NCBI RefSeq assembly: GCF_009769385.1
Contig: NZ_VKAB01000011.1
Span: 186,001-250,000, forward strand
Reading direction: 5' to 3'
DNA: 64,000 nt
Source: Saccharothrix deserti
GTDB lineage: Bacteria; Actinomycetota; Actinomycetes; Mycobacteriales; Pseudonocardiaceae
Below, piece by piece: positions 6,503 to 20,285 of the stretch. A program made the position numbers and the translations under genes. Every line of letters begins with the position of its first letter. The first letter of the stretch is position 1. The notes beneath the pieces are model-generated. The model ran no database searches. It had not been told where the DNA came from and saw only the letters and a program-made list of their open reading frames with translations.

Positions 6503-6600
6503 CCCCGTTCGCACCTCTCCTTCACCCGAAGTGGTTGTCTGGGACCGACGCTAAAGAGCCCGACGGGCACCAAACGGTGTCCACGACAGGGGAACCGCCC

Positions 6601-6912
6601 ATGACCTTCCTCGCCGACTGCCGCGCACGGCAGGCGTTCGACCTGCTGGCCAACACCTGGAACCCGGTGGTCCTGCACGCGCTGCGGCACGGCCCGCGCC
6701 GGCCCGCCGACCTGCGCCGCGCCATCGGCGGCATCCGGCCCAAGGTGCTCACCGAGACCGTGCGCCGACTGGAGGCCGCCGGGCTGGTGGCCAGGAACGC
6801 CTTCCGCGACCGGGTGGAGTACGAGCTGACCGACCTGGGGCGCAGCCTGCTCGGGCCGATCGACGCACTGGGCCGCTGGGCGCACGACCGCGGCGACGAA
6901 ATCCGGCTTTGA
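6601..6912 (+). CDS. HxlR-family transcriptional regulator
   Basis: 103-residue winged-helix protein of the HxlR/YtfH type: early Cys (LADCRARQ), NTWNPVVLHALRHGPRR, then the recognition helix region GGIRPKVLTETVRRLEAAGLV and wing VEYELTDLGRSLL. HxlR proteins bind DNA as dimers, often sensing electrophiles or redox state through the N-terminal Cys. About 100 bases separate it from the divergent reductase gene, the expected target. Confidence 0.9.
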   Translation: MTFLADCRARQAFDLLANTWNPVVLHALRHGPRRPADLRRAIGGIRPKVLTETVRRLEAAGLVARNAFRDRVEYELTDLGRSLLGPIDALGRWAHDRGDEIRL

Positions 6913-6978
6913 CGACGTCCGGCTTGACGGGTGATTCGAAACGCTGGTTTATAACGGTTTTTCAAGAGGTGGTGCGCC

Positions 6979-7396
6979 ATGGAGGCAGGGTTCCGGACCC
7001 TCGACCGCGAGATCGTCGCGGACAACCTGGAGGTCCGCGGCGAACTGCCGCGATGGCTCTCCGGCACGCTCGTGCGCAACGGCCCGGCCAGGTTCGAGAC
7101 CGACGATCCGGTCACGGCGGCTCGCAGACGACACGCTGGAACTGCCCCGCACCTCCTACCGCTCGCACAACGGCCGCGACTACCGGTACGCCGACGGCGT
7201 CGGCCCGCACGACAACGGCCGACACGACTTCTTCAACCAGCTCGTCAAGGTGGACGTCCGCAGTGGAGGGACCAGTCGGTGGCGCGAGCCCGGCAGCTAC
7301 CCCGGGCGAGCCGGTGTTCGTCGCGGCTCCGGACGCACGGGCCGATGAGCCGCACGTGATCCCGTTCGGGTCCACGGCCGGTTCACCTCCCGGCCT
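6979..7396 (+). pseudogene. Decayed carotenoid oxygenase
   Basis: Starts normally, with AGAGGTG before the ATG and the family N-terminus (LEVRGELPRWLSGTLVRNGP). After RFE, several hundred residues are missing and the frame changes; the sequence resumes with ELPRTSYRSHNGRDYRYADGVG, KVDVRSGGTSRWREPGSYPG and EPVFVAAPDA, all typical of the penultimate region. The extreme C-terminus HVIPFG..HGRFTSR is recognisable only by shifting frame, consistent with loss of one T near 7370. About 135 of roughly 450-480 residues remain, and most of the iron-ligand histidines are gone, so it cannot function. Confidence 0.85.
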
Positions 7397-7435
7397 CACC
7401 AGCTCTCGTCAGCCGTCGCAGCCGTCTCGGCAGTC

Positions 7436-7717
7436 TCAGCCGTCGATCGTGATCACACAACCTTCGTGGTCGACCTGGGGGACGTCGGCGTCGTCGAACC
7501 AATGGCCGTCGGCGCCGAGGTAGCGGAACCGGTGCGTGCCCGGTGGGAGGATCACCGTCACCGTGCGCGTGCCGTCGCGGCGCGGTACCAGTTCGTGCAC
7601 GCCAGGGGTCCAGTCGTTGAACGTGCCGACCACGCTCACCGGGCCGCGCGGCTGGTCGAGCGGCAGTGAGAAGGTCACTCGGCGCTTCGGGCCGAAGAGG
7701 CGAGTGCTGCGGAGCAT
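7436..7717 (-). CDS. CBM48 (isoamylase N-terminal-like) domain protein
   Basis: 93 residues consisting of a single early-set beta-sandwich glycogen-binding domain: VTFSLPLDQPRGPVSVVGTF, NDWTPGVHELVPRRDG, then VILPPGTHRFRYLGADGHW. The NDW/GxHxFRY pattern is that of AMP-activated-kinase and glycogen-branching-enzyme CBM48 modules. No catalytic domain follows. Stand-alone CBM48 proteins of this size are common in actinomycetes; a role in binding storage polysaccharide is inferred. ATG with GGGAGA upstream. Confidence 0.85.
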   Translation of the reverse strand: MLRSTRLFGPKRRVTFSLPLDQPRGPVSVVGTFNDWTPGVHELVPRRDGTRTVTVILPPGTHRFRYLGADGHWFDDADVPQVDHEGCVITIDG

Positions 7718-7812
7718 CGTTCTCCCTCGCGGGTCGATCTTGCCTTCCAGGGACCCTACCGCTCCAGACCGCTCCGGTGTTCCAAGTGGACAGTCACGCG
7801 TCGGGGTGACGT

Positions 7813-8676
7813 ATGCTCCGGGACGTGCCGCCGACTTCCGACGAGGACGCCTTCTACCACGCGTGCGAGCAGTCGGACACCACGCTGCTGGACGAGCTCT
7901 ACCAGCCGGGTTTCGAACGCGTGGTCAACCACAAGCTGGACTTCGAGGACATCGCCGGCCTGCGCTGGTTCCTGGACCACGGCGTGGACGTGAATGCCGA
8001 GTTCTGTCTGCACCACGCCATCGGCCGCGCCCGGAGCACCGAGGTCCTCAGTGCCTTGATCGCAGCCGGCGCAGACGTGAACCTCCCGTGGGGCCGCTGG
8101 GACGTCGGCCGCCGACCGCTGGCACTGGCCGCTCGGTGCGGACACCTGGCCGCGTACTCACTCCTGCTGTCGCACGGCGCCGAAGCGTCCCTGGACCCGG
8201 TGGACGAGGCAGTGCTGGCCGTGGCCCGAGGAGAATCGGTCTCCCTACCGCGCTCCGCAGCCCCAGTCCTGGGTACACCCGCCGGCGACGACTACGGCTG
8301 GATCCTGGGCCAGTTCGCGGCTCTGGGCAGGACGGACGTAGTAGCCGCCCTCCTCGACGCCGGCATGGCCGTGGACACCCGAGGCTGGAGCAACTTCACC
8401 CCGCTGGACCAGGCCGCGATGAACGGCCGAGTAGAGGTGGTGCGCCTCCTCGTGGCACGCGGCGCGGACCTCACGGACAAGGCCTTCGACAAGGACGGCC
8501 CAACCCCGCTCGACTGCGCACTGTGGGGCGTGCGGAACAACCGGACGCCGGACGGCGACTACCCGGGAACAGTCGCGGCTCTAGTCGCGGCAGACGCGCC
8601 GACCAGGCACAATGGACCGACAGGCGACGCGGGAGTGGACGCGGCGATGGCCGAAAAGATCACTCCAACGAGCTAA
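7813..8676 (+). CDS. Ankyrin-repeat protein
   Basis: 287 residues built from ankyrin-type helical pairs: HHAIGRARSTEVLSALIAAGADVN, ALAARCGHLAAYSLLLSHGA, LGRTDVVAALLDAGMAVDTR, TPLDQAAMNGRVEVVRLLVA and TPLDCALWGVRNN. No signal peptide, membrane segment or enzymatic domain is seen, so it is probably a soluble protein-binding scaffold. The ATG at 7813 has GGGGTG close upstream; an in-frame GTG at 7825 is a weaker alternative. Nearby genes give no clue to its partner. Confidence 0.85.
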   Translation: MLRDVPPTSDEDAFYHACEQSDTTLLDELYQPGFERVVNHKLDFEDIAGLRWFLDHGVDVNAEFCLHHAIGRARSTEVLSALIAAGADVNLPWGRWDVGRRPLALAARCGHLAAYSLLLSHGAEASLDPVDEAVLAVARGESVSLPRSAAPVLGTPAGDDYGWILGQFAALGRTDVVAALLDAGMAVDTRGWSNFTPLDQAAMNGRVEVVRLLVARGADLTDKAFDKDGPTPLDCALWGVRNNRTPDGDYPGTVAALVAADAPTRHNGPTGDAGVDAAMAEKITPTS

Positions 8677-8689
8677 CGAAGCGTCAATG

Positions 8690-9330
8690 GGAAACTTTCA
8701 GCGCACCATTGACGTTGCCGGGAAAGAAGGAGGCAGCGGCGCGGCAGGCGAACCAGGCGGTCGCTTCGTCGCAGTAGGTGCGGATTTTGAGGCAGCCGTG
8801 GAGGATGCCGACGAGCCGTTGGCCGCGACCAGCGCGGCGGCGAAGCAGCCCCTGCGGCGGGGAAGCAGCCCCGCAGCGCGTCCCGCAGCCGCCGGGTGTG
8901 CCAGGTCCGTCCCCAGATCAGGGGCTTGTGGGTGCGGCCACGACCTCAACCGCCTCGGCCTCCGGGCTATCACCGGCGACCGGCCGCAGCTCGTGGGCGT
9001 GGGTGCGGATCATGTCGGCCAATACGTGCGCGTCGCCGGCCCTCGCTCTTGGCCCCCCGACACCCCCAACCCGTCGCGGAACCTGGCCGCCTGCAACGGG
9101 TCGACCGCCAACACCGTGTAGCCGGCCATCACCAGCGCCGCTGCCCGGGTCCCGATCGGTCGCGATCGGTCGCGGTCCCGACCGGCACCTCGACCTCATC
9201 GGGCTCGTCGGCGTCGTCACCGATCAGCCCGCCCGCGATCGCGTGCAGGGCAAGCGAGCCGGATGCACGGGCAGGCCGACCGAACCGCGAACCCGCAGCG
9301 GACGGAGACGGAAGCATAGACGAGCGTCTA
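8690..9330 (-). mobile_element. IS110-family transposase remnant
   Basis: Reading the minus strand and allowing frame changes gives IS110 transposase pieces in order: VPVGTATDR, AGYTVLAVDPLQAARFRD, DAHVLADMIRTHAHELRPVAGD followed by SPEAEAVEVVA, then HKPLIWGRTWHTRRLRDALR. At least two frameshifts and premature stops interrupt them. The N-terminal DEDD portion is partly present; the C-terminal serine-containing half is not recognisable. No terminal repeats were found. This explains the otherwise gene-free stretch between the ankyrin gene and the ArsR-GNAT gene. Confidence 0.75.
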
Positions 9331-9332
9331 TG
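9315..9332. promoter_or_regulatory. Palindromic operator candidate upstream of ArsR-GNAT gene
   Basis: CATAGACG-AG-CGTCTATG is a perfect 8-bp inverted repeat with a 2-base centre, 68 bases before the start codon. Size and spacing suit an ArsR/SmtB dimer site, so autoregulation is likely. Confidence 0.5.
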
Positions 9333-9400
9333 AAGTGAGTCCCATTGCATCGACCAGATTCGATTGACCACGCGGCACCGCGAGGCCAAGAATCCGCGTC

Positions 9401-10204
9401 ATGACATCCCCAGCGCTCCTCGCGGTCGACCAGGCCACCGCCTACGCCGAACGGTTCGGCTGCCTGGCCGACCCGACCAGGGTCCGGCTGCTGCACGCCG
9501 TCGCCGCCGGCGAGACCACCGTCGGCGTGCTGGCCGACGTGCTCGGTGTCACCCAGCCCACCTGCTCCCACCACCTGCGCAAACTGGCCGCCGCCGGCTT
9601 CGTCCAACTCCGCCGCGACGGCACGGCGACCCTCGCCTCGGTCGACCCGTCCGGCCGCGTCGTGCTGCCGCACGCCATCGACGCGGTGCTGGGTGCCATC
9701 CCCACCGCGCCGCTCGACCCGCCGGCGGACGTCGTCGTGCGCGCGATGGTCGACGACGACTGGGTCGACGTGCGGCGCATCTACGGTGAGGGCATCGCGA
9801 CGGGTGACGCCACGTTCGAGACCGAGACGCCGACCCGTCGCACGCTGGACGTGAAGTGGCTGCTCGACCACCGATGGGTCGCGGTGGTCGACGGGTGGGT
9901 TGCGGGGTGGGCGGCGGCTACGCCTGTGTCGCCGCGCGAGTGTTATGCGGGGGTTGCGGAGACGTCGCTGTACGTGGACGCGCGCTTTCGGGGGAGGGGT
10001 GTGGGGAAGGCGTTGCTGCACCGGCAGGTTGTGGCGGCGGATGCCGCTGGGCTGTGGACGTTGCAGGCCGTCGTGTTCCCGGAGAACCGGGCCAGCATCG
10101 CGTTGCACCGGTCGGCTGGGTTCCGGACGGTCGGGATTCGGGAGCGGATCGCGGTGCACCACGGGGTTTGGCGGGACACGATCATGTTGGAGCGTCGCGC
10201 CTGA
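9401..10204 (+). CDS. ArsR-type regulator fused to GNAT acetyltransferase
   Basis: 267 residues in two domains. Residues about 10-95 are an ArsR winged helix (RFGCLADPTRVRLLHAV, GVTQPTCSHHLRKLAAAGFV). Residues about 108-267 are a GNAT domain of the phosphinothricin/arsinothricin N-acetyltransferase kind: VRAMVDDDWVDVRRIYGEGI, GDATFETETPT, SLYVDARFRGRGVGKALLH (acetyl-CoA loop) and FPENRASIALHRSAGFRTVG. C22 lies before the helix and C54 in the recognition region, so metalloid sensing is possible, but a classical CxC pair is absent. One protein could thus sense a toxic arsenical or phosphinic amino acid, derepress itself and acetylate the toxin. GC and codon use shift between the two halves. Confidence 0.85.
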   Translation: MTSPALLAVDQATAYAERFGCLADPTRVRLLHAVAAGETTVGVLADVLGVTQPTCSHHLRKLAAAGFVQLRRDGTATLASVDPSGRVVLPHAIDAVLGAIPTAPLDPPADVVVRAMVDDDWVDVRRIYGEGIATGDATFETETPTRRTLDVKWLLDHRWVAVVDGWVAGWAAATPVSPRECYAGVAETSLYVDARFRGRGVGKALLHRQVVAADAAGLWTLQAVVFPENRASIALHRSAGFRTVGIRERIAVHHGVWRDTIMLERRA

Positions 10205-10385
10205 GGGTCGGGGCCGGTGAGGGCGAGGGTGGTTGGGGGAGGTGGCGGGGAAAGATAAAGCGGTCGCCTGGGGTGGCGGGTTCGTGCGACCGTCGGTGTT
10301 GCCTGTTCGCGGCTCGGGGCGATTGTGCGGCTGGGCTGGAGGGGCGGGGGCCGCGCGGGGGGAGTAGGGCGCGGGAGAGGGGGAT

Positions 10386-10415
10386 CACAATTGTGCAGTC
10401 CCTGCAAAGTTGCAG
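10386..10415. promoter_or_regulatory. Operator region for the TetR-MFS pair
   Basis: Two palindromes lie just before the TetR start: CACAATTGTG (10386-10395, perfect) and CTGCAA-AG-TTGCAG (10402-10415, perfect arms). Either could be the TetR dimer site; the second lies 30 bases upstream of the GTG start. Confidence 0.5.
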
Positions 10416-10445
10416 TACGTGCATGTTTGTCCTTACGCTGATCAA

Positions 10446-11108
10446 GTGACCACTCAGGCGGCCGAGGGGCTTCGCGACCGCAAGAAGCGGCAGACCCGCG
10501 CGGCTTTGAGCCACGCCGCCGTCCGCCTGGTCGCCGAGCACGGCCTCGACCACGTGACCGTCGAGGACATCAGCGCCGCCGCCGACGTCTCGCCGCGCAC
10601 CTTCTTCAACTACTTCGCCACCAAGGAAGACGCCGTCCTCGGCCCCGACCCGGACACCGGCCCCCGCGTCCGCGCCCGCGTGCTCGCCCAACCGGCGGAG
10701 CTGTCCGCCGCGGCGGCCGTGCGCGAGGCGTTGTCGGCGGAGGTCGCCGCGGTGGTGGCGGAGGACCGCGAGTTGTGGTTGCGGCGGATGTGCGTGGTGC
10801 AGCAGCACCCCGTGCTGTTGGCGAAGGTGTTCTCCGGCGGTGAAGCGGTGGAACGCGAACTGGTCGCCGGCATCGCCGAACGCGTCGGCCTGCCCGCCGA
10901 CGACACCTACCCGTTGCTGCTCGGCGCGGCGGCGGGTGCGGCGTTCCGGGTGGCCGTCGTCCGCTGGTCGAGCGTTCGGTGGTCGAGCACCGCCGCATCG
11001 CTGCAGGACCTGCTCGCCGAGGCCGTCGACATGCTCGCCGGAGGGCTGGCCGACCCGCCGTCGGCCCAGAGCCAGAGCCAGAGCCGGGCCACGAGTCCGC
11101 AGTCTTGA
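10446..11108 (+). CDS. TetR-family repressor of adjacent efflux gene
   Basis: 220 residues from a GTG. N-terminal helix-turn-helix: RDRKKRQTRAALSHAAVRLV, HGLDHVTVEDISAAADVSPR, TFFNYFATKEDAV, the standard TetR_N pattern. The C-terminal ligand-binding half is family-variable. The tail (SAQSQSQSRATSPQS) is a low-complexity Ser/Gln stretch. It lies 26 bases upstream of the DHA2-type transporter and most likely represses it in the absence of an inducing drug. Palindromes overlap its promoter. Confidence 0.9.
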   Translation: MTTQAAEGLRDRKKRQTRAALSHAAVRLVAEHGLDHVTVEDISAAADVSPRTFFNYFATKEDAVLGPDPDTGPRVRARVLAQPAELSAAAAVREALSAEVAAVVAEDRELWLRRMCVVQQHPVLLAKVFSGGEAVERELVAGIAERVGLPADDTYPLLLGAAAGAAFRVAVVRWSSVRWSSTAASLQDLLAEAVDMLAGGLADPPSAQSQSQSRATSPQS

Positions 11109-11134
11109 AACATCGTCACTACCTGGGGGATCCG

Positions 11135-12670
11135 ATGTCCACCGAAACCGGCACGACCTCGCGCCGGGACGTCATGCAAGCCATGTCCGGCCTCATGCTG
11201 GGCATGTTCATGGCCATCCTGGCCTCGACCATCGTGTCGAACGCACTGCCGCGCATCATCGCTGACCTGCACGGCTCGCAGTCCGTCTACACCTGGGTCG
11301 TCACCACCGAACTGCTGGCCATGACGGCGACCGTGCCGCTGTGGGGCAAGCTCGCCGACCTCTACAGCCGCAAACTGCTCATCCAGCTCTCCCTCGGCCT
11401 GTTCGTGGTGGGCTCGCTCATCGCGGGCTTCTCCCCGAACGTCGAGGTCCTGATCGCCAGCCGCGTCGTGCAGGGCCTCGGCGCGGGCGGCATGACCGCG
11501 TTGGCCACGATCGTGATGGCGGCGATGATCCCGCCGCGCGAGATGGGCCGTTACGCGGGCATCTTCGGCGCGGTGTTCGGCGTCGGCACGGTCGCCGGCC
11601 CGCTCATCGGTGGCGTCATGGTGGACACCTCGTGGCTGGGCTGGCGCTGGTGCTTCTTCATCGGCGTGCCGTTCACCCTCGCCTCGATCCTCCTGCTCCA
11701 GCGCACGCTGAACCTGCCGGTGGTGCGCAAGGAAGTCACGATCGACTACCTGGGCGCGGCGCTGATCGTCGGCGGCGTGTCCACGCTGCTGGTGTGGTCG
11801 ACGCTGGCCGGTCAGCAGTTCGAGTGGGCCTCGGCGTGGACCGCGCTGCTGGTGACGGTCGGCGTCGTGCTGCTGGGCCTGGCCGTGTGGGTGGAGTCGC
11901 GGGCGGCCGACCCGATCGTGCCGCTGACGATCTTCGCCAACCGCACGGTCGCGTTGACGACGCTGGCCAGCGCGCTGGTGGGTGTGGCGATGTTCGGCGG
12001 CACGGTGTTCCTGTCCCAGTACTTCCAGATCGGCCTGGGCAAGACGCCGACGCAGGCGGGCCTGATGAGCCTGCCGCTGATCTTCGGACTGCTGGTGTCG
12101 TCCACCGTGGCCGGTCAGCTGATCACCAAGTGGGGCAAGTGGAAGGTGTTCCTGGTCGCCGGCGGCGTGGTCATGGTCGGCGGGATGCTGCTGCTGGCCA
12201 CGATCGACGCGAACACGAGCGTGTTCATGGTGAGCGTGCACATGGCCGTGCTGGGTGTCGGCGTCGGTCTGCTCATGCAGAACCTGGTGCTCGCCGCGCA
12301 GAACGACGTGCCCGCCCGCGACCTCGGCGCCACCACGTCGACCCTCACGTTCTTCCGCAGCCTCGGCGGCGCGATCGGCGTGAGCGCGTTGGGCGCGGTG
12401 CTCGCGAACCGGGTGACCGCGCTGAGCGAGGAGAAGCTCGGCCCGGCGCCCGGTGGCGACTCGGGCACGGTGCCCGACCTGGCGCTGCTGCCCGAGTCGG
12501 TGCGGGTGATCGTGCGCGACATCTACGCCACGGCGACGGCCGAGCTGTTCCTGATCGGCGCGCCGATCGCGGTGCTGGCGCTGCTGGCGGTGCTGTTCAT
12601 CAAGGAGAAGCCGCTCAAGACGCTCAGCGGTGACGAGCGGCTGGCCGCGGAGATGGCGGAGAGCCACTAG
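11135..12670 (+). CDS. DHA2-family (EmrB/QacA-type) MFS drug exporter
   Basis: 511-residue, 14-span proton-coupled exporter. Motif A is visible as GKLADLYSRK after TM2, motif B/C regions as RVVQGLGAGGMTALA and GVGTVAGPLIGGVMVD, the last being the export-specific motif C. Further helices run through VFLSQYFQIGLG and the C-terminal QNLVLAAQNDVP segment typical of the DHA2 set. The start ATG follows GGGGGA. It is paired with the upstream TetR gene, a standard inducible multidrug efflux unit; the substrate cannot be read from sequence. It serves as a useful full-length reference for the shortened paralogue at 18213. Confidence 0.93.
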   Translation: MSTETGTTSRRDVMQAMSGLMLGMFMAILASTIVSNALPRIIADLHGSQSVYTWVVTTELLAMTATVPLWGKLADLYSRKLLIQLSLGLFVVGSLIAGFSPNVEVLIASRVVQGLGAGGMTALATIVMAAMIPPREMGRYAGIFGAVFGVGTVAGPLIGGVMVDTSWLGWRWCFFIGVPFTLASILLLQRTLNLPVVRKEVTIDYLGAALIVGGVSTLLVWSTLAGQQFEWASAWTALLVTVGVVLLGLAVWVESRAADPIVPLTIFANRTVALTTLASALVGVAMFGGTVFLSQYFQIGLGKTPTQAGLMSLPLIFGLLVSSTVAGQLITKWGKWKVFLVAGGVVMVGGMLLLATIDANTSVFMVSVHMAVLGVGVGLLMQNLVLAAQNDVPARDLGATTSTLTFFRSLGGAIGVSALGAVLANRVTALSEEKLGPAPGGDSGTVPDLALLPESVRVIVRDIYATATAELFLIGAPIAVLALLAVLFIKEKPLKTLSGDERLAAEMAESH

Positions 12671-13225
12671 CTCCCCGAGTCGACAGTCCGTCGCCCGACT
12701 GCGACGGAGGACGACCGCGCAGGCGTTGCGGCGCTTGCGCGGTTCGTCCGTACCGGTTTGACGGCTGACCGTGGCCGGTCGGCTGCGGCAGCCACTGCAT
12801 GCGCACCCGTCCGCGTAACGCGGTCGCGGCTCGGCACCCCCTGTGGTGACGCTGTGTTTCTACTTCGACACCCACCACACTTCAGTCAATTGACGGCTGC
12901 CGAGCAATTCAACATCAAATTGTCGCCATTGACCTGACGGTGCGGCGCAACGTGAGAACGATTCAACGGCGCGAGTGGTCGCCCATTCAACTTTCTGTCG
13001 CTAGGTCGCGTGGAATTTTCCGTCGTCTGGGTGAACCCTCGTCCGCAGTTGGCGTGGCAGACTCACAGGCGGCTCGCGAAGCCATTGCAGAAGTTGGCCA
13101 TGTTGTCCCTGGCCGACTTCCCGCTGGTACCAGGCGGGCGAATGTGCAGTCGACGCTACCCAATTTATCGAGTGGTGGCTCCTGCTTGGCCGACCGCCCA
13201 TCATCGTCAAACGAAAGGCACGATC
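12671..13225. other. Gene-free upstream region of the Q-rich protein gene
   Basis: No credible coding region on either strand. From about 12890 the DNA is distinctly less GC-rich than its surroundings and holds three exact ATTCAAC direct repeats (12907, 12961, 12985), a TTGACG at 12890-12895 and several other A+T-rich blocks. It is most likely a long regulatory region for the Q-rich/caspase genes. No promoter could be fixed with confidence. Confidence 0.5.
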
Positions 13226-14161
13226 ATGACCACCGCAACGTCCTATGCGTCGCCCGGGCAGACACAGCAGATGCGTGAGCTCGCAGACATGATGGCGCAG
13301 GGTTTCAAGGACGCGTTGCAGCAGGCCGGTGGCCCGCGCTCTCGCGACATGGGGCCGGACCAGCTCGGACAGCAGCAGCCCGGTCAGTTCGGACAGCAGC
13401 CAAGCCAGTTCGGGCAGCAGCAGCAGCAGCCCGGCCAGTTCGGGCAGCAACAGCAGCAGCCCGGCCAGTTCGGGCAGCAACAGCAGCAGCCCGGCCAGTT
13501 CGGGCAGCAGCAGCCCGGTCAGTTCGGGCAGCAACAGGGTCAGTTCGGGCAGCAGCCCGGCATGGGCTTGACCGGGCCTGACGTGCAGGAACGCTTCCTG
13601 CCGGTGCTGGCCGCGATCCTGCCGGCCGTGGTGTCCGCGGTGCCCCAGATCATCAACGGCCTCCAGACCCAGAACCGGGACATCATCACGGCGTCGCAGG
13701 ACCCGCAACAGGTCCAGCGGGACTTCCTGTCGGTGCTGAGCGCGGTGGTGCCGCAGGTCCTCCAGGCGGTTCCGTCGATCATCTCGTCGCTCCAGGGCAG
13801 CCGTGACTACCCGCAGAGCGACGAGGAGGTGTCGACCCGATTCTTCGGTCCGCTGATCGCTTCCATCGTGCCGCAACTCGTCCAGGCGGCTCCGGTCATC
13901 CTCAACGCGTTCGCACCCGGTCGGCGGGAGCTGGTCGGTGCGAGGCCGCACGACCCCCAGATCGCCCAGCGCATCCTCGGCCCGGTGCTCAGCGCGGTGG
14001 TGCCCGCGCTCACGCAGTGCGTGCCGCCGCTGATCGGGCTGTTCACCGGCCAGCGTTACGTGGAGCAGGGTCAGCAGCAGTACGGCCAGCAGCAGTACGG
14101 CCAGCAGGCCCAGCAGCAGTACGGCCAGCCGGCCCAGCAGTTCGCGCAGCAGTCAGTCTGA
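13226..14161 (+). CDS. Glutamine-rich prion-like protein with four hydrophobic repeats
   Basis: 311 residues, family not recognised. Residues 1-45 are an ordinary helical N-terminus. Residues about 46-112 are a Q/G/F low-complexity tract with repeated GQFGQQQQQP units. Residues about 118-285 contain four copies of a 45-50-residue unit centred on FLPVLAAILPAVVSAVPQI, FLSVLSAVVPQVLQAVPSI, FFGPLIASIVPQLVQAAPVI and ILGPVLSAVVPALTQCVPPL. These are amphipathic to hydrophobic helices with regularly placed prolines. A second Q/Y-rich tail (GQQQYGQQAQQQYGQ) closes the protein. There is no signal peptide. The pattern suggests an assembly-prone, membrane-active or polymer-coating protein (phasin-like behaviour is one alternative). 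It precedes a caspase gene, from which it is separated by a hairpin. Confidence 0.75.
   Translation: MTTATSYASPGQTQQMRELADMMAQGFKDALQQAGGPRSRDMGPDQLGQQQPGQFGQQPSQFGQQQQQPGQFGQQQQQPGQFGQQQQQPGQFGQQQPGQFGQQQGQFGQQPGMGLTGPDVQERFLPVLAAILPAVVSAVPQIINGLQTQNRDIITASQDPQQVQRDFLSVLSAVVPQVLQAVPSIISSLQGSRDYPQSDEEVSTRFFGPLIASIVPQLVQAAPVILNAFAPGRRELVGARPHDPQIAQRILGPVLSAVVPALTQCVPPLIGLFTGQRYVEQGQQQYGQQQYGQQAQQQYGQPAQQFAQQSV
13369..13560 (+). repeat. In-frame glutamine-codon tandem repeat
   Basis: Units of 30 bases beginning CCGGCCAGTTCGGGCAG recur at 13431, 13461 and 13491, flanked by shorter imperfect units. They encode the GQFGQQQQQP tract. Near-identity of the DNA copies, not just the protein, indicates recent slippage or recombination. 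Confidence 0.85.
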
Positions 14162-14168
14162 CCGGAAC

Positions 14169-14202
14169 GGGGTAGGGCGGCCTCGCCCGGCCGCCCTACC
14201 CC
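14169..14202 (+). terminator. Strong hairpin between Q-rich gene and caspase gene
   Basis: A perfect 14-bp stem (GGGGTAGGGCGGCC and complement) with a 6-base loop, 8 bases after the Q-rich stop and 26 bases before the caspase start, followed by a weak GACTTTGT. It could terminate most transcripts and leave limited read-through, giving much more Q-rich protein than caspase. Confidence 0.75.
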
Positions 14203-14227
14203 GACTTTGTGCCTCTAGGGAGGAAAG

Positions 14228-15538
14228 ATGGCGCAGCGCACGCTGACGCGCGGATCGCAAGGCGAGGACGTACGCCGGCTCCAGCTGGTGCTCAAGCAGG
14301 CGAACTACGATCCCGGCCAGGCCGACGGGATCTTCGGGGAACGCACCGAGAACGCGGTCACGGACTTCCAGCGCGACCACGGTCTCGAGGCGGACGGCAA
14401 GGTCGGGCCGAAGACCTGGGGCGCGTTGACCGCACTCCACCCGACCCCGGGCGCGGCACGTGGGCGCTCCCTCCACATCGGGCTGAACTTCGTGGACGAC
14501 GCGGCGTACGGGATGACGGTGCCACCGCTGCGCGGGTGCGAGAACGACGCCAGGGACATGACGGCGCTCGCCCAGGCCCAGCGCTTCGAGAGCAGGATCA
14601 TGTTGAACGGGCAGGCGACCGCGTCCAATGTCATCGAGGCGATTCGGGACGTGGCCCGGGAACTGGAATCCGGAGACTTCTTCTTCCTCACCTATTCCGG
14701 GCACGGCAGTCAGATGCGTGATGCCACCGGCGAGGAACCGGATCAGCTGGACGAAACCTGGGTGCTGTACGACCGGCAATTGCTCGACGACGAACTCTCC
14801 GCGTTGTGGGGGGAATTCAGGCCCGGTGTGCGCATCATGATGCTATCGGATTCCTGCCACAGCGGCACCGTCAGCCGGGATGTCGTATTCGCTTACAAGG
14901 CGTTCGCGGCCTCGTTCCAGGAAGCCCGCGATGTCGGGTTCTTCCTCGACACGCCGATACCGATGCTCACCACGAGAAGCGCGCCGGGGTGGGACGAGGT
15001 GGAGCAGTCGCTGCGCGAAGTGATGCCCACGGTGGTGGCCCAACTGCAGGGCGACCGAGCCGCGGAGGAGGTCCAAGCCCCCGAGGTGGACCACTACGTC
15101 GATCTGGTGCTCACCCAACTCGAGGACGACACGCGGATGATGGCCGTCAGCGAGTTCAGCGACACGGGTGCGGTCGTCCTCGACCAGTCGCCCATCACCC
15201 GCAACCTCCCGCCGGAGATCGCCCACGCCGACCAGGTCGCCCGCTGGCGCGAATACAGCGAGGTCAAGAAGGAGGTCCGGAACGCGAAACCACCGCAGGC
15301 GTCCGTGCTCCTCATCTCGGGCTGCCAGGACAACCAGCTCTCGCTCGACGGCGTGAAGAACGGGCTGTTCACCCAGCGCCTGCTGGAGACCTGGAGCAAC
15401 GGCCGGTTCAGCGGCAACTACCGGGAGCTGCACCGGCAAATAGTGGCCTCCATGCCGCCCCAGCAGACGCCGAACTACTTCTGGGACACCAACCCGCCCA
15501 GCGTCGCGTTCGAACTCCAACGTCCGTTCACGATCTAG
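14228..15538 (+). CDS. Caspase-family (C14) peptidase with N-terminal peptidoglycan-binding domain
   Basis: 436 residues. Residues about 8-68 are a PG_binding_1 domain (GSQGEDVRRLQLVLKQANYD, GIFGERTENAVTDFQ, GKVGPKTWGAL). From about 80 a caspase/metacaspase p20-like fold follows: LRGCENDARDMTALA, FFFLTYSGHGSQ with H159, and IMMLSDSCHSGT with C210, the catalytic dyad. The C-terminal half retains SVLLISGCQDNQLS, GLFTQRLLETW, typical of bacterial caspase-like proteins. No signal peptide is evident although the first domain usually binds cell wall or acts as a protein-docking module. GGGAGGA precedes the ATG. Its neighbour is the Q-rich repeat protein, a plausible substrate or partner; regulated proteolysis or cell death is inferred. 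Confidence 0.88.
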   Translation: MAQRTLTRGSQGEDVRRLQLVLKQANYDPGQADGIFGERTENAVTDFQRDHGLEADGKVGPKTWGALTALHPTPGAARGRSLHIGLNFVDDAAYGMTVPPLRGCENDARDMTALAQAQRFESRIMLNGQATASNVIEAIRDVARELESGDFFFLTYSGHGSQMRDATGEEPDQLDETWVLYDRQLLDDELSALWGEFRPGVRIMMLSDSCHSGTVSRDVVFAYKAFAASFQEARDVGFFLDTPIPMLTTRSAPGWDEVEQSLREVMPTVVAQLQGDRAAEEVQAPEVDHYVDLVLTQLEDDTRMMAVSEFSDTGAVVLDQSPITRNLPPEIAHADQVARWREYSEVKKEVRNAKPPQASVLLISGCQDNQLSLDGVKNGLFTQRLLETWSNGRFSGNYRELHRQIVASMPPQQTPNYFWDTNPPSVAFELQRPFTI

Positions 15539-15647
15539 CGCTGTGTCTCGGAACGGCGAGTCCGTGGAGCGGGGCCGGAAGCTTCAGCGGATCGGCAGGA
15601 CCGCGAAGGGGCCGTTGCGTGACGCAGCACCGGCTCCGGAGACACGG

Positions 15648-15688
15648 GTGTCGCACTTGTCCTGCATATCGCCGGACAAGTGCGACAC
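15648..15688. promoter_or_regulatory. 15-bp dyad operator ahead of TetR gene
   Basis: Perfect arms GTGTCGCACTTGTCC and its complement, separated by 11 bases (TGCATATCGCC), end 8 bases before the TetR start codon. The length suits two TetR dimers or one large site overlapping the promoter, implying tight autoregulation. A terminator for the caspase gene is a less likely reading because it lies 110 bases past that stop. Confidence 0.65.
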
Positions 15689-15696
15689 TTTCGCGC

Positions 15697-16302
15697 GTGT
15701 CGGGACTGCGTGAACGCAAGAAGCTGGCCACCCGGACGGCGTTGGCCGATGCCGCGTTGCGACTGTGCGTAGAGCACGGCCTCGATGGAGTGACCGTCGA
15801 ACAGGTGGCCAACGACGCCGGCGTGTCCCTCCGCACGTTCTTCAACTACTTCTCCTCCAAAGAGGAAGCCGTGGTCGCGGGTGACGTCGCCACGGCCGCC
15901 GCGTTCGTCCAGGCCTTCGCCGGACGGCCCGAGTCGGAGCCGGTGCTGCAGGCCCTGCACCGCGCCCTGGTCGAGACCGTGCCCGACCGGATCGACCTCG
16001 AACGGGTGGCGCAGCTGCGCGTCCTGCGCCGGACCCCGGCGCTGCTGCCGCACCAGATCGCCGCCTTCGCCGCGCAGGAACGCGAACTGGCCGCCGCGGT
16101 GGCCGCGCGGGTCGGCGTCGACCCGGCCGCCGACCTCTACCCGATGATGTTCGCGGCCACCGTGATGGCGACCTTGCGGGTGGTCGTCGGCTGGTGGCTG
16201 GACGCCACCGAGCGACCCGAGCTGTCCGACCTGATCGGGGTCATGATCGACCGGCTGGACACGGGTTTCGCCGCCGTCCGGCCGAGCCGGGCCCGGTCTT
16301 AG
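15697..16302 (+). CDS. TetR-family regulator
   Basis: 201 residues from a GTG. The DNA-binding domain reads LRERKKLATRTALADAALRL, HGLDGVTVEQVANDAGVSLR, TFFNYFSSKEEAVV; it is close in design to the TetR at 10446. There is no ribosome binding site between the dyad and the start codon, so the message may be nearly leaderless. Targets are unknown; besides itself, it might control the convergent P450 gene or the caspase locus. Confidence 0.88.
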   Translation: MSGLRERKKLATRTALADAALRLCVEHGLDGVTVEQVANDAGVSLRTFFNYFSSKEEAVVAGDVATAAAFVQAFAGRPESEPVLQALHRALVETVPDRIDLERVAQLRVLRRTPALLPHQIAAFAAQERELAAAVAARVGVDPAADLYPMMFAATVMATLRVVVGWWLDATERPELSDLIGVMIDRLDTGFAAVRPSRARS

Positions 16303-16318
16303 GAGTCTCGCTCAGGCC

Positions 16319-17578
16319 TCAGGCTTCGTCCCAGGTGACCGGGAGCGCGTGCACGCCGTAGATCAGCATGTCGCCGCGCATCGGCACGTCGGCCGCGGGC
16401 ACGTCCAGGCGCAGACCGGGCAGCCGGCGCAGCAGCTCGGTGAAGCCGACGGTCATCTCCACCCGCGCCAGCTGTTGGCCGAGGCACTGGTGCACGCCGT
16501 GTCCGAACGCCAGGTGCGCGCCGCGCGGCCGGGTCACGTCGAGCGCGTCCGGCTTGTCGTACTGGCGCGGGTCGCGGTTGGCGGCGGGCACGGAGAGCAG
16601 CACGGTCGAGTCGGCCGGGACCACCTCGCCCGCGATCTCCACCTCCTCCCGCGTGGTGCGGACGACCCCCAGGTGGACGATCGACAGGTAGCGCAGCAGC
16701 TCCTCGACCGCACCGCCGATCAGCGTCGGGTCGTTCCTCAGCGCGGCGAGCTGGTCGGGGTGCTCCAGCAGCGCGAACGTGCCCAGCGCCAGCATGTTGG
16801 CGGTCGTCTCGTGGCCCGCGACGAGCAGCAGGTTCGCGATGCCGATCAGTTCGTCGTCGGTGAGCGTCGGGTCGGCCTCGATCAGGCCGGACAGCATGTC
16901 GTCCGTGGGCTCGGCGCGCTTGCTCAGCACCAGACCGCGCATGAACGCCCGCAGTTCGTCGGCCAGCCGCATGACCTCCTCCACGGGGACGTCGAGCCGC
17001 AGCAGCATCGCGGTGCGTTCCTGGAACTCGCCGCGGTCGCCGTACTCGACGCCCAGCAGCTCGCAGATCACCAGTGACGGCACCGGCAGCGCGAACGCCC
17101 GCACCAGGTCGGCGCCCGGCCCGGCGGCGATCATCGCGTCCAGGTGTTCGGTGACGATCCGCTCGATGCGCGGCGTGAGCTGCTTCATCCGACGGACGGT
17201 GAACTGGCCGGTGAGGAGCCTGCGGTAACGGGTGTGCCGGGGCGGGTCCATGGTGATGAAGCTGCCCGCGCGGGCCCGCGCGTCGGTCATCCGGGCGCGG
17301 ACCTGCTCGGGCAGCTTGTCCAGCACGCGCTTGCTGCCGAACCGGTCGGAGCCCAGCCGCGGGTCGGCGAAGAGGGTGCGGGCCAGTTCGTGGTCGGTGA
17401 CCAGCCACATCGGGTCGCCGTCGAGCATGGTGACCCGGTGGACCGGGCCCTGGCTGCCGAGCCGGCCGAGGACGCTCGGCGGGTCGAAGGGGCCGGTGTC
17501 GCGTTCGGTGAACTCGGGTGGCAGGGGGACGGTCATCCGGCCGGTGCTGGGGCGTTTGTGCTGGGAAGCGGTGGTCAT
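16319..17578 (-). CDS. Cytochrome P450 (bacterial class I type)
   Basis: 419-residue soluble haem monooxygenase. Signatures in order: DPPRHTRYRRLLTGQFTVRR (C-helix), LLLVAGHETTAN (I-helix oxygen-activation motif), EELLRYLS (ExxR), and FGHGVHQCLGQQLAR with the haem ligand C365. This is the CYP105/CYP107-like layout of actinomycete P450s, which hydroxylate secondary metabolites or xenobiotics. No ferredoxin gene is adjacent, so electrons must come from elsewhere. It is divergent from the MarR-MFS pair, sharing a palindrome-rich promoter region, which suggests joint control of a detoxification response. Confidence 0.93.
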   Translation of the reverse strand: MTTASQHKRPSTGRMTVPLPPEFTERDTGPFDPPSVLGRLGSQGPVHRVTMLDGDPMWLVTDHELARTLFADPRLGSDRFGSKRVLDKLPEQVRARMTDARARAGSFITMDPPRHTRYRRLLTGQFTVRRMKQLTPRIERIVTEHLDAMIAAGPGADLVRAFALPVPSLVICELLGVEYGDRGEFQERTAMLLRLDVPVEEVMRLADELRAFMRGLVLSKRAEPTDDMLSGLIEADPTLTDDELIGIANLLLVAGHETTANMLALGTFALLEHPDQLAALRNDPTLIGGAVEELLRYLSIVHLGVVRTTREEVEIAGEVVPADSTVLLSVPAANRDPRQYDKPDALDVTRPRGAHLAFGHGVHQCLGQQLARVEMTVGFTELLRRLPGLRLDVPAADVPMRGDMLIYGVHALPVTWDEA

Positions 17579-17686
17579 CGACGATCCGTTCCCGACCCGG
17601 CGCGCAACCGGGCCGCTGCTCAGCGTAGTGGTAACTCACCGTACCAAAACGTGCACAGCGTGCAGCTTTATTTAGATGCACGCGGA

Positions 17687-17696
17687 GCAAATTTGC
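17687..17696. promoter_or_regulatory. MarR operator candidate in the P450/MarR divergent region
   Basis: GCAAATTTGC is a perfect 10-bp palindrome 29 bases before the MarR start. Nearby, GTGCA...TGCAC arms (17660-17682) offer a second site. The region is less GC-rich than its flanks, as expected for promoters. Confidence 0.45.
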
Positions 17697-17724
17697 ACAA
17701 CGCGCAAGATAGAGGGGGAGTTGT

Positions 17725-18216
17725 ATGCGGCAAGCAATGCGGGGGAAGGGGCACGGCATGGACGCCGTCGCGCGGCAACTGGAGGACCGGGTGCGTGACC
17801 TGCTGAAGGTCGTGCGGATGGTCAAACAGCACCGACAGCCCCTGTCCGACGGACTGGTCGGCATCCTCTCGCTCATCGACCGCGCCGGCGCGGACGCGAC
17901 CGGCTGCCACGCCAAGGAACTGGCCGCCCGCGCCGGGCTCGACCCGTCCACGGTCAGCCGGGCGGTGGCCGCGCTGGTCGCCAACGGCCTGGTCGAACGG
18001 CGTGCCGGTCCCGAAGACGGCCGCGCCGGCATCCTCGTGGTGACCGAACGCGGGCGCGCCGAGCTGGCCGACGCCCGCGACTGGTCCGACCGGCTCCTGC
18101 GCCGTGCCCTTGCCGACTGGAGCCCCGCCGAGGTCGAGGCGCCGACCTCGGCGCTGGGGCGCCTGACCACCGACGTCGAAGGAGCCCTCGGTTCCACCTT
18201 GGAGGCCGCGCGATGA
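17725..18216 (+). CDS. MarR-family transcriptional regulator
   Basis: 163 residues. Winged helix: CHAKELAARAGLDPSTVSRA, VAALVANGLVERRAGPEDGRAGIL, VVTERGRAELADAR, the normal MarR layout with the wing at ERRAGPEDGRA. The ATG at 17725 follows GGGGGAG; an internal ATG at 17758 also has AAGGGG and may be the true start. Its stop overlaps the start of the shortened MFS gene (ATGA), so the two are coupled. MarR proteins usually repress an adjacent transporter and release on ligand binding. Confidence 0.9.
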   Translation: MRQAMRGKGHGMDAVARQLEDRVRDLLKVVRMVKQHRQPLSDGLVGILSLIDRAGADATGCHAKELAARAGLDPSTVSRAVAALVANGLVERRAGPEDGRAGILVVTERGRAELADARDWSDRLLRRALADWSPAEVEAPTSALGRLTTDVEGALGSTLEAAR

Positions 18217-19244
18217 GCGCACCCGCCACCACCACCGCCACGGTGAGCCACCGGCAGGTCCTGGAGGCCCTGAGCGGCCTGCTGCTGGCGCTGTTCGTAG
18301 CGATGCTCAGCAGCACCGTCGTCTCCACGGCCCTGCCGCCGATCATCGGCGCGCTCAACGGCTCGCAGACCCAGTACACCTGGGTGGTCACCGCGACCCT
18401 GCTCACCGCGACCGCCACCACGCCCGTCTGGGGCAAGCTCGCGGACCTGTTCGACAAGAAGACCCTGGTCCAGATCGCCATCGTGATCTTCGTGGTCGGC
18501 TCGGTGGTCAGCGGTTTCGCGCAGAGCGCGGGCCAGCTCATCGCCGCACGCGCGTTCCAGGGCATCGGCGTCGGCGGCGCGGTGTTCCTGGGCCAGTACT
18601 TCCAGATCGGCCGCGGCTACAGCCCGACCGAAGCCGGTCTGCTGACCATCCCGTTGATGGCCGGCGTGCTGGGCGCGTCCATCGTGTCCGGACGGCTGAT
18701 CACGAAGACCGGCCGGATCAAGCCGTACATCGTGGCGGGCGCGGCCACGCTGGTCCTCGGGTTCCTCGCGCTGGGGCGGATCGACCACGAGACGTCGCTG
18801 GTGCTGGTCGGCGGGTCGATGCTGCTCGTCGGCGTGGGTGTCGGCATGAGCATGCAGAACCTGGTGCTCGCGGTGCAGAACACGGTGCCGTTGAAGGACA
18901 TCGGCGCGGCCAGCTCCACCATCGCGTTCTTCCGGTCGCTCGGCGGCACGATCGGCGTGTCGGTGCTCGGCGCGGTGCTGGCCCGCCGGGTCGAGGACGC
19001 GATCACCCGCGATCTGGCGGCGGCGGGCATCCCGGCCGGCGGCGCGGGCGGCGGCAACCTCAACCTGAACGTGCTGCCGGACGCCGTGCAGCACATCGTC
19101 CGGGCCGCGTACGGCGACGCCACCGGCCACATCTTCGTGATCTCGGCGGCCATCGCGGTGGTCGGCGTGGTCGCGGCCCTGCTGCTCAAGCCGATCACGT
19201 TGCGCACCAGCCTGGACCTCGTCGAGACCCCGACCGCAGTCTGA
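18213..19244 (+). CDS. DHA2-type MFS transporter with large internal deletion
   Basis: 343 residues where relatives have about 510. The start is normal (LEALSGLLLALFVAMLSSTV, motif A GKLADLFDKK). At residues about 115-125 the sequence jumps from AFQGIGVGG straight to AVFLGQYFQIGRGYSPTEAG; in the full-length paralogue at 11135 the equivalent points (RVVQGLGAGG and GGTVFLSQYFQIG) are about 175 residues apart. TM5 to about TM10, including export motif C, are therefore missing. The reading frame is preserved and the rest, to QNLVLAVQNTVP and the last helices, is intact. It may be inactive, or a small membrane protein with a new role; frame conservation and coupling to MarR suggest it is still translated. 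Confidence 0.85.
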   Translation: MSAPATTTATVSHRQVLEALSGLLLALFVAMLSSTVVSTALPPIIGALNGSQTQYTWVVTATLLTATATTPVWGKLADLFDKKTLVQIAIVIFVVGSVVSGFAQSAGQLIAARAFQGIGVGGAVFLGQYFQIGRGYSPTEAGLLTIPLMAGVLGASIVSGRLITKTGRIKPYIVAGAATLVLGFLALGRIDHETSLVLVGGSMLLVGVGVGMSMQNLVLAVQNTVPLKDIGAASSTIAFFRSLGGTIGVSVLGAVLARRVEDAITRDLAAAGIPAGGAGGGNLNLNVLPDAVQHIVRAAYGDATGHIFVISAAIAVVGVVAALLLKPITLRTSLDLVETPTAV

Positions 19245-19364
19245 CGCGGGGGTGTTGGCGAGAACCCGTTGGAGTGTGGCAGTCAGGCCACTGCCGCGGC
19301 GGCCGTCGCGCTCCTACCGTCACACGTGACTTGATCACCTGCGACGACAAGGACCGCCTCCATC

Positions 19365-19811
19365 ATGATCGTGGTCACGGCACTGCTCATCGGCGTGCTG
19401 TACGTGTGCCTGAACTCCTTCATCCGCGAACCGCACCGGCGCCGGTTCAACGCGATCATGGTCGCCGGCGCCGGCGCGGCCTACCTCAGCGGTGGCGGGT
19501 TGGGCGTCTGGGAGTTCGTGATCACCGCCGTGATCACGTATTGCGCCTACCGCGGCCTGGAGTCGTGGACGTTCATCGGCATCGCGTGGCTCGTGCACAC
19601 GGCCTCGGACGTGGTGCACCACCTGCAGGGCACCCCGATCATCCCGTTCGCCGAGCACTCGTCGCTCGGCTGCGCGATCTGCGACCCGGTGATCGCGCTG
19701 TGGGCGTTCGCGGGCGGTCTCGACGTCCGGTCAATGACCCCCGCAGCACTCGTGCGGGCTCTCCGCCTCCGTCGGGCGCAGCACGCCGCCGACGGCGGGC
19801 TCCACGAGTAG
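19365..19811 (+). CDS. DUF6010-family membrane protein
   Basis: 148 residues with about four hydrophobic segments (VVTALLIGVLYVCLNSF, IMVAGAGAAYLSGGGLG, VWEFVITAVITYCAYRGL, IGIAWLVHTASDVVHHL). The combination FIREPHRRRFNA, WEF, HTASDVVHHLQGTPIIPF and CAICDPVIALW is that of DUF6010 proteins, which have no assigned function. The last 25 residues are charged and encoded by DNA that also encodes the C-terminus of the convergent gene. Confidence 0.75.
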   Translation: MIVVTALLIGVLYVCLNSFIREPHRRRFNAIMVAGAGAAYLSGGGLGVWEFVITAVITYCAYRGLESWTFIGIAWLVHTASDVVHHLQGTPIIPFAEHSSLGCAICDPVIALWAFAGGLDVRSMTPAALVRALRLRRAQHAADGGLHE

Positions 19812-20285
19812 CACCAGCTCGCCGTCCTGGCAGAGCGGGCGGAGGAACCCGAGCGTTTCCACCCGATCGGTCGGTGAGACCGGGACACCGATGCCGACCA
19901 CCCGGTCGATCGCGGACCCGGCCACCACCTCGGCCGCCGGATGGGTGCCGGTGAGCGTGGACTGGCCGGGGAAGCGGATGCACCGGCCGTCGGTGCGGTC
20001 GCGGCCCGCGCGCGCGGCCCGTGCGGCAGGGGAGTCGGGGATGCCGGGGGAGTCGGGGGAGTCGAGCACGACCACCGGGCCACCCAGGGCCTCCGACAGC
20101 CGGTCGACGTCCACCTCGCCCGTCACGTGGGCGGACAGCGCGGTGACCGCGACCGGGCCGAGGCGGTCGATGTGCGTGCACACGAAATCCGCCTCGACAC
20201 CGTCGAACGCGGTCAGCAGCAGTGCGTCCACGTGCGCCGCGCCGTGCCCGCCGGGCAGGGCGGGCACGGCGCCGAGCCAGGTCAT
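19731..20285 (-). CDS. Unrecognised protein with Cys/His C-terminal tail
   Basis: 184 residues, family not recognised. It begins MTWLGAVPALPGGHGAAHVD and has an alternating strand-helix pattern (DALLLTAFDG, LGPVAVTALSAHVTGEVDVD, GPVVVLDS), then a Pro/Ser/Asp spacer, a VVGIGVPVSPTDRVETLGFL stretch and the terminal HECCGGH, which looks like a metal ligand cluster. Its ATG overlaps the stop of the PHP-domain gene (ATGA), so it is co-translated with a His-rich, presumably metal-dependent exported protein. It overlaps the DUF6010 gene tail-to-tail by 81 bases, so one of the two C-termini may be mis-called. Confidence 0.6.
   Translation of the reverse strand: MTWLGAVPALPGGHGAAHVDALLLTAFDGVEADFVCTHIDRLGPVAVTALSAHVTGEVDVDRLSEALGGPVVVLDSPDSPGIPDSPAARAARAGRDRTDGRCIRFPGQSTLTGTHPAAEVVAGSAIDRVVGIGVPVSPTDRVETLGFLRPLCQDGELVLLVEPAVGGVLRPTEAESPHECCGGH

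Follow-up and report, generated by a model that had tools for sequence, protein, structure and literature searches.

Within a 64,000-nucleotide stretch of the 10.8-Mb genome of Saccharothrix deserti (contig NZ_VKAB01000011.1, positions 186,001 to 250,000; hereafter, the window), two adjacent forward-strand genes encode a protein with four hydrophobic repeats (P0001) and a caspase homolog carrying a PG_binding_1 domain (P0002). Our analysis of these genes and their relatives indicates that the two proteins are almost certainly functional partners, and that the core of the repeat-protein family is a string of Arg-edged hydrophobic helices beside a peptidoglycan (PG)-binding, Arg-type protease of clan CD, the glutamine (Q) tracts being a Saccharothrix decoration. 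That the two-gene cassette consists of a multi-peptide precursor and its dedicated Arg-type convertase is a serious possibility, though one that stops short of being probable. To our knowledge, the natural substrates of bacterial caspase homologs are rarely known; here, a candidate substrate is encoded beside its enzyme and the predicted cut sites recur in homologs ~30-45% identical. If the proposal is true, metacaspase-processed peptide precursors are not a plant invention, and two families of Arg-type protease serving one partner would show what that partner needs from its protease.

A preliminary description of the locus had placed a 311-residue protein and a PG_binding caspase at 13226..15538, and both were borne out by open reading frames (ORFs) and Pfam searches. 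P0002 matched Peptidase_C14 (E 7e-25; 88.5 bits, cut-off 21.4) and PG_binding_1 (E 2.5e-20), and its His/Cys dyad is intact, as described. P0001 gave only two sub-threshold Pfam hits (16.2 bits, cut-off 26.6; 12 bits, cut-off 27), with no NCBIfam match above cut-off and no PADLOC match. Since both frames are under purifying selection among three Saccharothrix copies (dN/dS of 0.27-0.44 for the caspase and 0.35-0.63 for the repeats), neither is a chance frame.

Altogether, eight repeat proteins were found in six genomes. A PG_binding protease is encoded directly 3' of seven of them, and in six cases (the window, L049, L050, L051, L154, and L153a) it belongs to the C14 family. In the seventh, from Nonomuraea gerenzanensis (L155, found by a search of plasmid records), the repeat gene overlaps a gene for a PG_binding_1 protein with a Peptidase_C11 (clostripain) domain (142.6 bits, cut-off 25.8). 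Clostripain can replace the caspase as partner, an observation that is new relative to the preliminary description. When the count is confined to the subset of six repeat proteins found by the repeat query (two in Saccharothrix sp. ALI-22-I [G127], L153a, L153b, L154, and L155), the partners are C14 in four, C11 in one, and none in one. The earlier view of the two genes as a unit was upheld, and a predominance of protease-less homologs did not appear. Repeat-domain and caspase identities also run in parallel (r 0.996 over 15 pairwise comparisons of six gene pairs, a value inflated by three near-identical Saccharothrix copies), and both proteins show the same split, (Saccharothrix + L154) versus (L051 + L153a). 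L153b (L153 7489-8499) and the L155 repeat protein (L155 7758-8756) share an extra C-terminal domain (29% identity, E 7e-10), and L153b is possibly a clostripain-type orphan. Directly 3' of the repeat and caspase pair in genome G860 lies a gene whose Trypsin_2 product also gives a weak alpha/beta-hydrolase signal (L153 16974-19343), possibly a third component in that genome.

The congener ALI-22-I holds two copies of the pair, one syntenic with the window (L044) and one elsewhere (L043). When window positions 6001-20000 were compared with the 19-kb L043 stretch (Q-tract cross-matches set aside, matches of 60 bases or fewer not printed), the sequences matched only at 12945-15554, with 89% identity over 2659 aligned positions, and the two genes therefore constitute one cassette. 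The unit reaches from 281 bases upstream of the first gene through 16 bases past the second. The upstream stretch shows a mean column identity of 88% in an alignment of three Saccharothrix copies, and a consensus scan of 12650-15750 found no sigma-70 promoter. A TetR gene 3' of the cassette (15697-16302) is present in the syntenic copy only, not in L043. Counting the window's own genome, the cassette occurs in 2 of 25 genomes of the genus and, in overlapping sets, in 2 of 150 and 2 of 220 genomes of the family. The genome searches scored only part of their first-look candidates (e.g., 9 of 65 in one genome) and tested absence weakly: the one match among 396 genomes from across the phylum was that containing the window; in the Actinoplanes family, 3 of 250 matched, namely the query's own, G885 (one pair, L154), and G860 (one pair, L153a, with a second repeat protein, L153b, 6.4 kb upstream); and among 60 relatives of G860, two matched, both already known. 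The converse pairing fails, as most of the 80 loci from a caspase-alignment scan of the whole genome collection, some of them cut by contig ends, are without a repeat neighbor; a repeat gene stands beside the caspase in three (both ALI-22-I copies and Actinoplanes sp. NBRC 103695, L051).

Such patchy, cassette-like spread with sharp edges would also suit a conflict or defense cassette, with the caspase as a death effector that responds to phage or damage and the repeat protein as a membrane adaptor. A PADLOC caspase model recognizes P0002 (E 6.9e-11, 40 bits), and the EACC1-caspase pair is described as a 5' membrane-type gene followed by a 3' caspase gene in multicellular bacteria, the EACC1 domain having a single transmembrane helix (PMC7159879). 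However, P0002 scored only 27.3 bits against the EACC1-associated caspase model NF047832, for which the cut-off is 140, and Pfam found no NTPase or sensor domain in the gene pair. P0001 had no NCBIfam match to an EACC1 domain, with the presence of an EACC1-domain model in the libraries unchecked, and its structure model shows four long repeat helices. We consider a defense role unlikely.

The four hydrophobic repeats of the preliminary description are real, in that the four-repeat pattern recurs in homologs 29-45% identical to each other, although each repeat as delimited here comprises 39-44 residues rather than 45-50. The repeat domains of L051 and the window share 43% identity over 134 positions (pairwise E 1e-32), and L155 has three repeats by our count. 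The two Q-rich tracts reported on either side of the repeats are likewise present in the window protein, which is 25% Q overall. The tracts are encoded by tandem DNA repeats that vary in copy number, including a 30-bp unit occurring five times at 13394-13537 under the N-terminal tract. Long tracts are confined to Saccharothrix: Q content is 23-25% in its three proteins versus 5-9% in the other five, L051 being without Q tracts and L155 having a single run of six Q. The preliminary description had offered two roles for P0001, caspase substrate or assembly scaffold, and they did not fare equally. A prion-like scaffold, whose Q-rich tracts would polymerize and activate the caspase, draws on the Q content of the Saccharothrix proteins, but five of the eight homologs are without such tracts, four of those five keep a protease partner, and tandem DNA repeats underlie the tracts; we regard it as very improbable. 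The substrate idea is the better one because of conserved Arg residues and the swap to another Arg-type protease.

To describe these residues, basic positions were counted at 31 hydrophobic segments of 22 residues each (four in each of seven proteins and three in L155), of which three end their protein and 28 are non-terminal. A leading Arg was present at 31/31, a count that is partly by construction since the segments were delimited from the Arg list; in an alignment that took no account of Arg, all eight proteins had Arg in the columns of window R165 and R249. No segment contained an internal Arg (0/31), and a trailing basic residue, within 23-32 residues of the leading Arg, followed 26 of the 28 non-terminal segments (Arg in 25, Lys in 1); in the window protein, Arg stands just after each of the four. 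Ahead of the repeats, an Arg-Asp motif occurs in six of the eight proteins (window R40, L049 R40, L051 R34, L154 R50, L153a R36, and L153b R37) and was not found in L050 or L155. A virtual digest at Arg yielded 30 hydrophobic peptides of 24-35 residues; 23 measured 28-29 residues, and one (L155) came from outside the repeats. In polar-residue shuffles the pattern was unusual in seven proteins (P 0 to 0.0065) and not in L155 (P 0.42), although repeats within one protein are not independent and these P-values overstate significance. The protease probably cuts the repeat protein.

The nearest solved relative of P0002 is GSU0716 (PDB 3BIJ; E 2.8e-66), presumably from Geobacter, followed by other metacaspases. 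According to PMC4357240 (Table 2), P1 specificity is for Arg in clostripain and Arg/Lys in metacaspases; the same paper gives Cys92, Asp95, Ser156, and Asp211 as proposed S1-pocket residues in a metacaspase of trypanosomes. Their counterparts in the window protein, by motif, are C104, D107, S157, and D208, which are kept in all six repeat-linked caspases with the sole exception of Ala in place of S157 in L154; the H159/C210 dyad is conserved in 6/6. By motif, the S1 pocket of P0002 appears suited to Arg or Lys. A Ca2+ site is likely, with D172/D175, D187, and D188 as candidate Asp ligands and a fourth Asp placed without certainty.

A further feature sets the repeat-linked caspases apart. The distance from DSCHSG to the p10 motif is 140-156 residues in these six versus 62-117 in 62 others (68 caspases measured from 83 loci, 15 loci unmeasured), such that a long p20-p10 loop was present in 6/6 and 0/62, respectively. 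An insertion that accompanies the repeat protein in this way is suggestive of contact or autoprocessing. A fused form exists in Pseudonocardia kunmingensis (L091) and Pseudonocardia sp. MH-G8 (L096), where four hydrophobic segments of 21-22 residues, with Lys at both edges of each, make up the C-terminal end of the caspase itself. Since no sequence homology was found between the Saccharothrix and Pseudonocardia repeats (hhalign probability 0.1%), this fusion is a parallel and not a proof. In L096, the gene after the fused caspase encodes a subtilase (Peptidase_S8).

A structure model of P0001 (AlphaFold2 with four sequences) had a mean predicted local distance difference test score (pLDDT) of 60 and a predicted template modeling score of 0.56. 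Helices were modeled at residues 10-35, 119-149, 160-189, 199-220 with 222-229, and 244-263 with 266-274; in ten-residue blocks, pLDDT across the repeat region was 50-85 and mostly above 70. The Q tract was below 50, and a further helix (287-309) sits in the low-confidence tail. In the model, loops outside the helices hold the trailing Args (151, 193, 233, and 277), and the first helix turns hold the leading Args (123, 165, 205, and 249). The earlier suggestion that proline-spaced helices could insert into membranes is compatible with this model. Bacterial gasdermin-protease pairs likewise place a protease gene beside a gene for a membrane-acting substrate, and the gasdermin fold is beta-rich. 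The P0001 model is helical and strandless (at middling confidence), and no gasdermin-named family was among the Pfam or PADLOC hits, which together speak against a gasdermin system for this pair. Structural neighbors of the model were at background level only.

The model and the loop are also what might be expected if the repeat protein were an uncut, stable regulator or docking partner whose four helices bind the long p20-p10 loop and hold the caspase inactive or at the membrane. Among the caspases, the loop coincides with the presence of the repeat protein, the prediction of four helices is fairly confident, and leading Args inside helices look like structural residues. Such a regulator, however, leaves unexplained why linker-end basic residues are kept with a clostripain partner and why the repeats of the fused Pseudonocardia caspases are Lys-edged, and we think this explanation rather unlikely.

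Expression of the protease may be set by a strong RNA hairpin between the two genes of the window. The fold of 14159-14230 has a free energy of -42 kcal/mol (z -4.6), and a consensus scan did not find a T-tailed terminator there. A hairpin of at least 11 bp was present in all five pairs having an intergenic gap of tens of bases, with z of -3.8 in L049, -4.9 in L050, -2.3 in L051, and -1.6 in L154, the last not outstanding (10 of 200 shuffles folded as well). In L153a the gap is four bases, and in L155 the genes overlap.

On the precursor-convertase proposal, P0001 would be a precursor of four amphipathic, proline-kinked helices with an Arg at the start of each. Both proteins would wait in the cytosol, and by inspection neither has an evident signal peptide. 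The precursor would be in excess because the intergenic hairpin would damp expression of the protease and keep it below that of its partner. A rise in Ca2+ upon membrane damage, wall breach, or lysis would then make the protease active at the wall, and by cleaving C-terminal to the linker Args it would release four helical, membrane-acting pieces of about 28-44 residues; were the trailing sites alone cut, the pieces would be ~40-44 residues. A trigger by Ca2+ or damage is plausible. What is observed is that the pairing, the Args, and the protease residues are conserved. We infer that the linker Args are the cut sites, that the hairpin is a damper, and that Ca2+ exerts control; membrane damage as the outcome is a guess. 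We rate the release of membrane-active pieces through cleavage at these Args as somewhat less likely than not. More tentatively still, we propose a bacterial multi-peptide precursor with its own PG-tied, Arg-specific convertase of clan CD (metacaspase or clostripain), freeing four membrane-active helices on damage and thereby forming a bacterial counterpart to the processing of PROPEP by plant metacaspases and of Ece1 by fungal Kex2. The arrangement would be in trans in several genera, Saccharothrix and Actinoplanes among them, and may be in cis in Pseudonocardia.

The case for a precursor and its convertase comprises the pairing and co-inheritance, the swap to an Arg-type partner, the S1 residues, the basic edges, the long loop, the Pseudonocardia fusion, and the position of the trailing Args outside the helices. 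Several observations weigh on the other side, beyond the delimitation of segments by Arg, the dependence among repeats in the shuffles, the missing homology of the Pseudonocardia repeats, and the middling confidence of the P0001 model. L153b has repeats, yet no protease adjoins it, its neighbors being response-regulator and kinase genes on the opposite strand (names by eye). Two trailing sites are broken, segment 1 of L050 having no basic residue and the Arg of segment 3 of L049 coming seven residues late. Lys occurs inside 3/31 segments (two in L154 and one in L153a), and an enzyme also cutting after Lys might cut these internally. The leading Args may have a structural role, and in a folded bundle cleavage at these positions could be hindered. 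The long loop may represent one ancestral insertion in one clade; an Asp of the proposed Ca2+ site, at position 188, is Arg in L153a, and position 218 varies. Finally, when 4764 six-frame segments from 83 loci and the window were screened for at least three similar, hydrophobic, K/R-edged peptides, 18 were listed, of which eight were the repeat family or fused caspases and ten were others (likely membrane proteins and doubtful frames among them), and L153a and L155 were missed.

Released hydrophobic peptides need not kill. A wall protease might instead free surface-active structural peptides that coat hyphae or spores, as a PG_binding domain beside a repetitive hydrophobic precursor could suggest. 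Saccharothrix and Actinoplanes are filamentous. In Ustilago, a polyprotein of amphipathic peptides works as hydrophobins, according to PMC12153327. The absence of an evident signal peptide on either protein and a spread far patchier than that of a coat component (2/25 genus and 2/220 family genomes) argue against this role, which we consider doubtful, and more so than a role in defense.

Several known systems resemble the pair in part. Like bacterial metacaspases (orthocaspases; C14B) such as GSU0716, P0002 has the p20 His/Cys dyad, a p10 motif of the SGCQDNQ type, and the S1 residues by motif; unlike them, it has an N-terminal PG_binding_1 domain, carries the long insertion between p20 and p10, and is accompanied by a four-repeat partner gene of its own. 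The clostripain of Nonomuraea resembles P0002 in its operon position beside a homologous repeat protein, its N-terminal domain, and its expected Arg specificity; it belongs to another clan-CD family, and its repeat protein has three repeats and the extra C-terminal domain. Plant PROPEP1 yields one peptide per precursor. There, too, a metacaspase is the convertase of a peptide precursor, acting after wounding as described in PMC12629630, although PROPEP1 is a plant signal peptide of unrelated sequence. In Candida, Ece1p, the candidalysin precursor processed by Kex2, contains tandem peptides with basic sites between them, and one of these peptides is amphipathic and acts on membranes (PMC12153327), but Ece1p is fungal, secreted, and kexin-processed at dibasic sites, and the likeness is at most one of working. 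These two pairs are precedents for precursor-convertase logic and are not put forward as relatives. Varied fusions and operons are reported in a survey of prokaryotic metacaspases (PMC3501461). No paper on the present gene pair was found in open PubMed Central, subscription papers being mostly outside that coverage.

Table 1. Positions in the window of the cassette, its genes, and their sequence features.
Feature	Positions	Strand	Basis or remark
Presumed cassette promoter and leader (conserved upstream stretch travelling with the gene pair)	12945..13225	+	window-L043 identity; three-copy Saccharothrix alignment
Four-repeat protein P0001, 311 aa	13226..14161	+	ORF; no family match above cut-off
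N-terminal helix, P0001 residues 10-35	13253..13330	+	structure model
Q/G/P/F-rich N-terminal tract, P0001 residues 47-112; length variable; Saccharothrix only	13364..13561	+	
Hydrophobic segment 1, residues 124-151, between R123 and R151	13595..13678	+	
Hydrophobic segment 2, residues 166-193, between R165 and R193	13721..13804	+	
Hydrophobic segment 3, residues 206-233, between R205 and R233	13841..13924	+	
Hydrophobic segment 4, residues 250-277, between R249 and R277	13973..14056	+	
Q-rich C-terminal tract, P0001 residues 280-311; Saccharothrix only	14063..14158	+	
Strong intergenic RNA hairpin, 15 bp	14168..14203	+	fold of 14159-14230
PG_binding_1-caspase (C14) P0002, 436 aa	14228..15538	+	ORF, Pfam
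PG_binding_1 domain, P0002 residues 11-67	14258..14428	+	Pfam
P0002 catalytic H159	14702-14704	+	YSGHG motif
P0002 catalytic C210	14855-14857	+	DSCHSG motif
Long p20-p10 insertion, P0002 about residues 220-330 (edges by eye)	14885..15217	+	loop of 156 residues

Elsewhere in the window, a TetR and major facilitator superfamily (MFS) gene pair lies between a GNAT gene and the cassette (10410-12670). The matching place in L044 is without this pair, and the MFS and TetR genes near it are only distantly similar (52% and 41%). An MFS transporter at 18213-19244 has 343 aa versus 530 aa in the syntenic L044, ~500 bases being absent inside the gene.

A distinct neighborhood was seen among the 80 caspase loci, in which a GSU0716-like caspase is preceded by members of two large protein clusters, found in 17/80 and 13/80 loci (L055, L059, L082, L118, and others; also L163 3083-8845). 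Four members scanned had no Pfam match, and several of the caspases carry C-terminal PG_binding-like stretches by eye. This neighborhood occurs in Tessaracoccus, Polaromonas, and a metagenome-assembled genome of Bacteroidetes, and apparently on a Deinococcus plasmid, and it looks like a widespread three-gene system. In G298 (L045 1002-1848), a large protein that looks TPR-rich by eye has as its neighbor a caspase relative whose sequence contains ambiguous bases and is divided between two frames.

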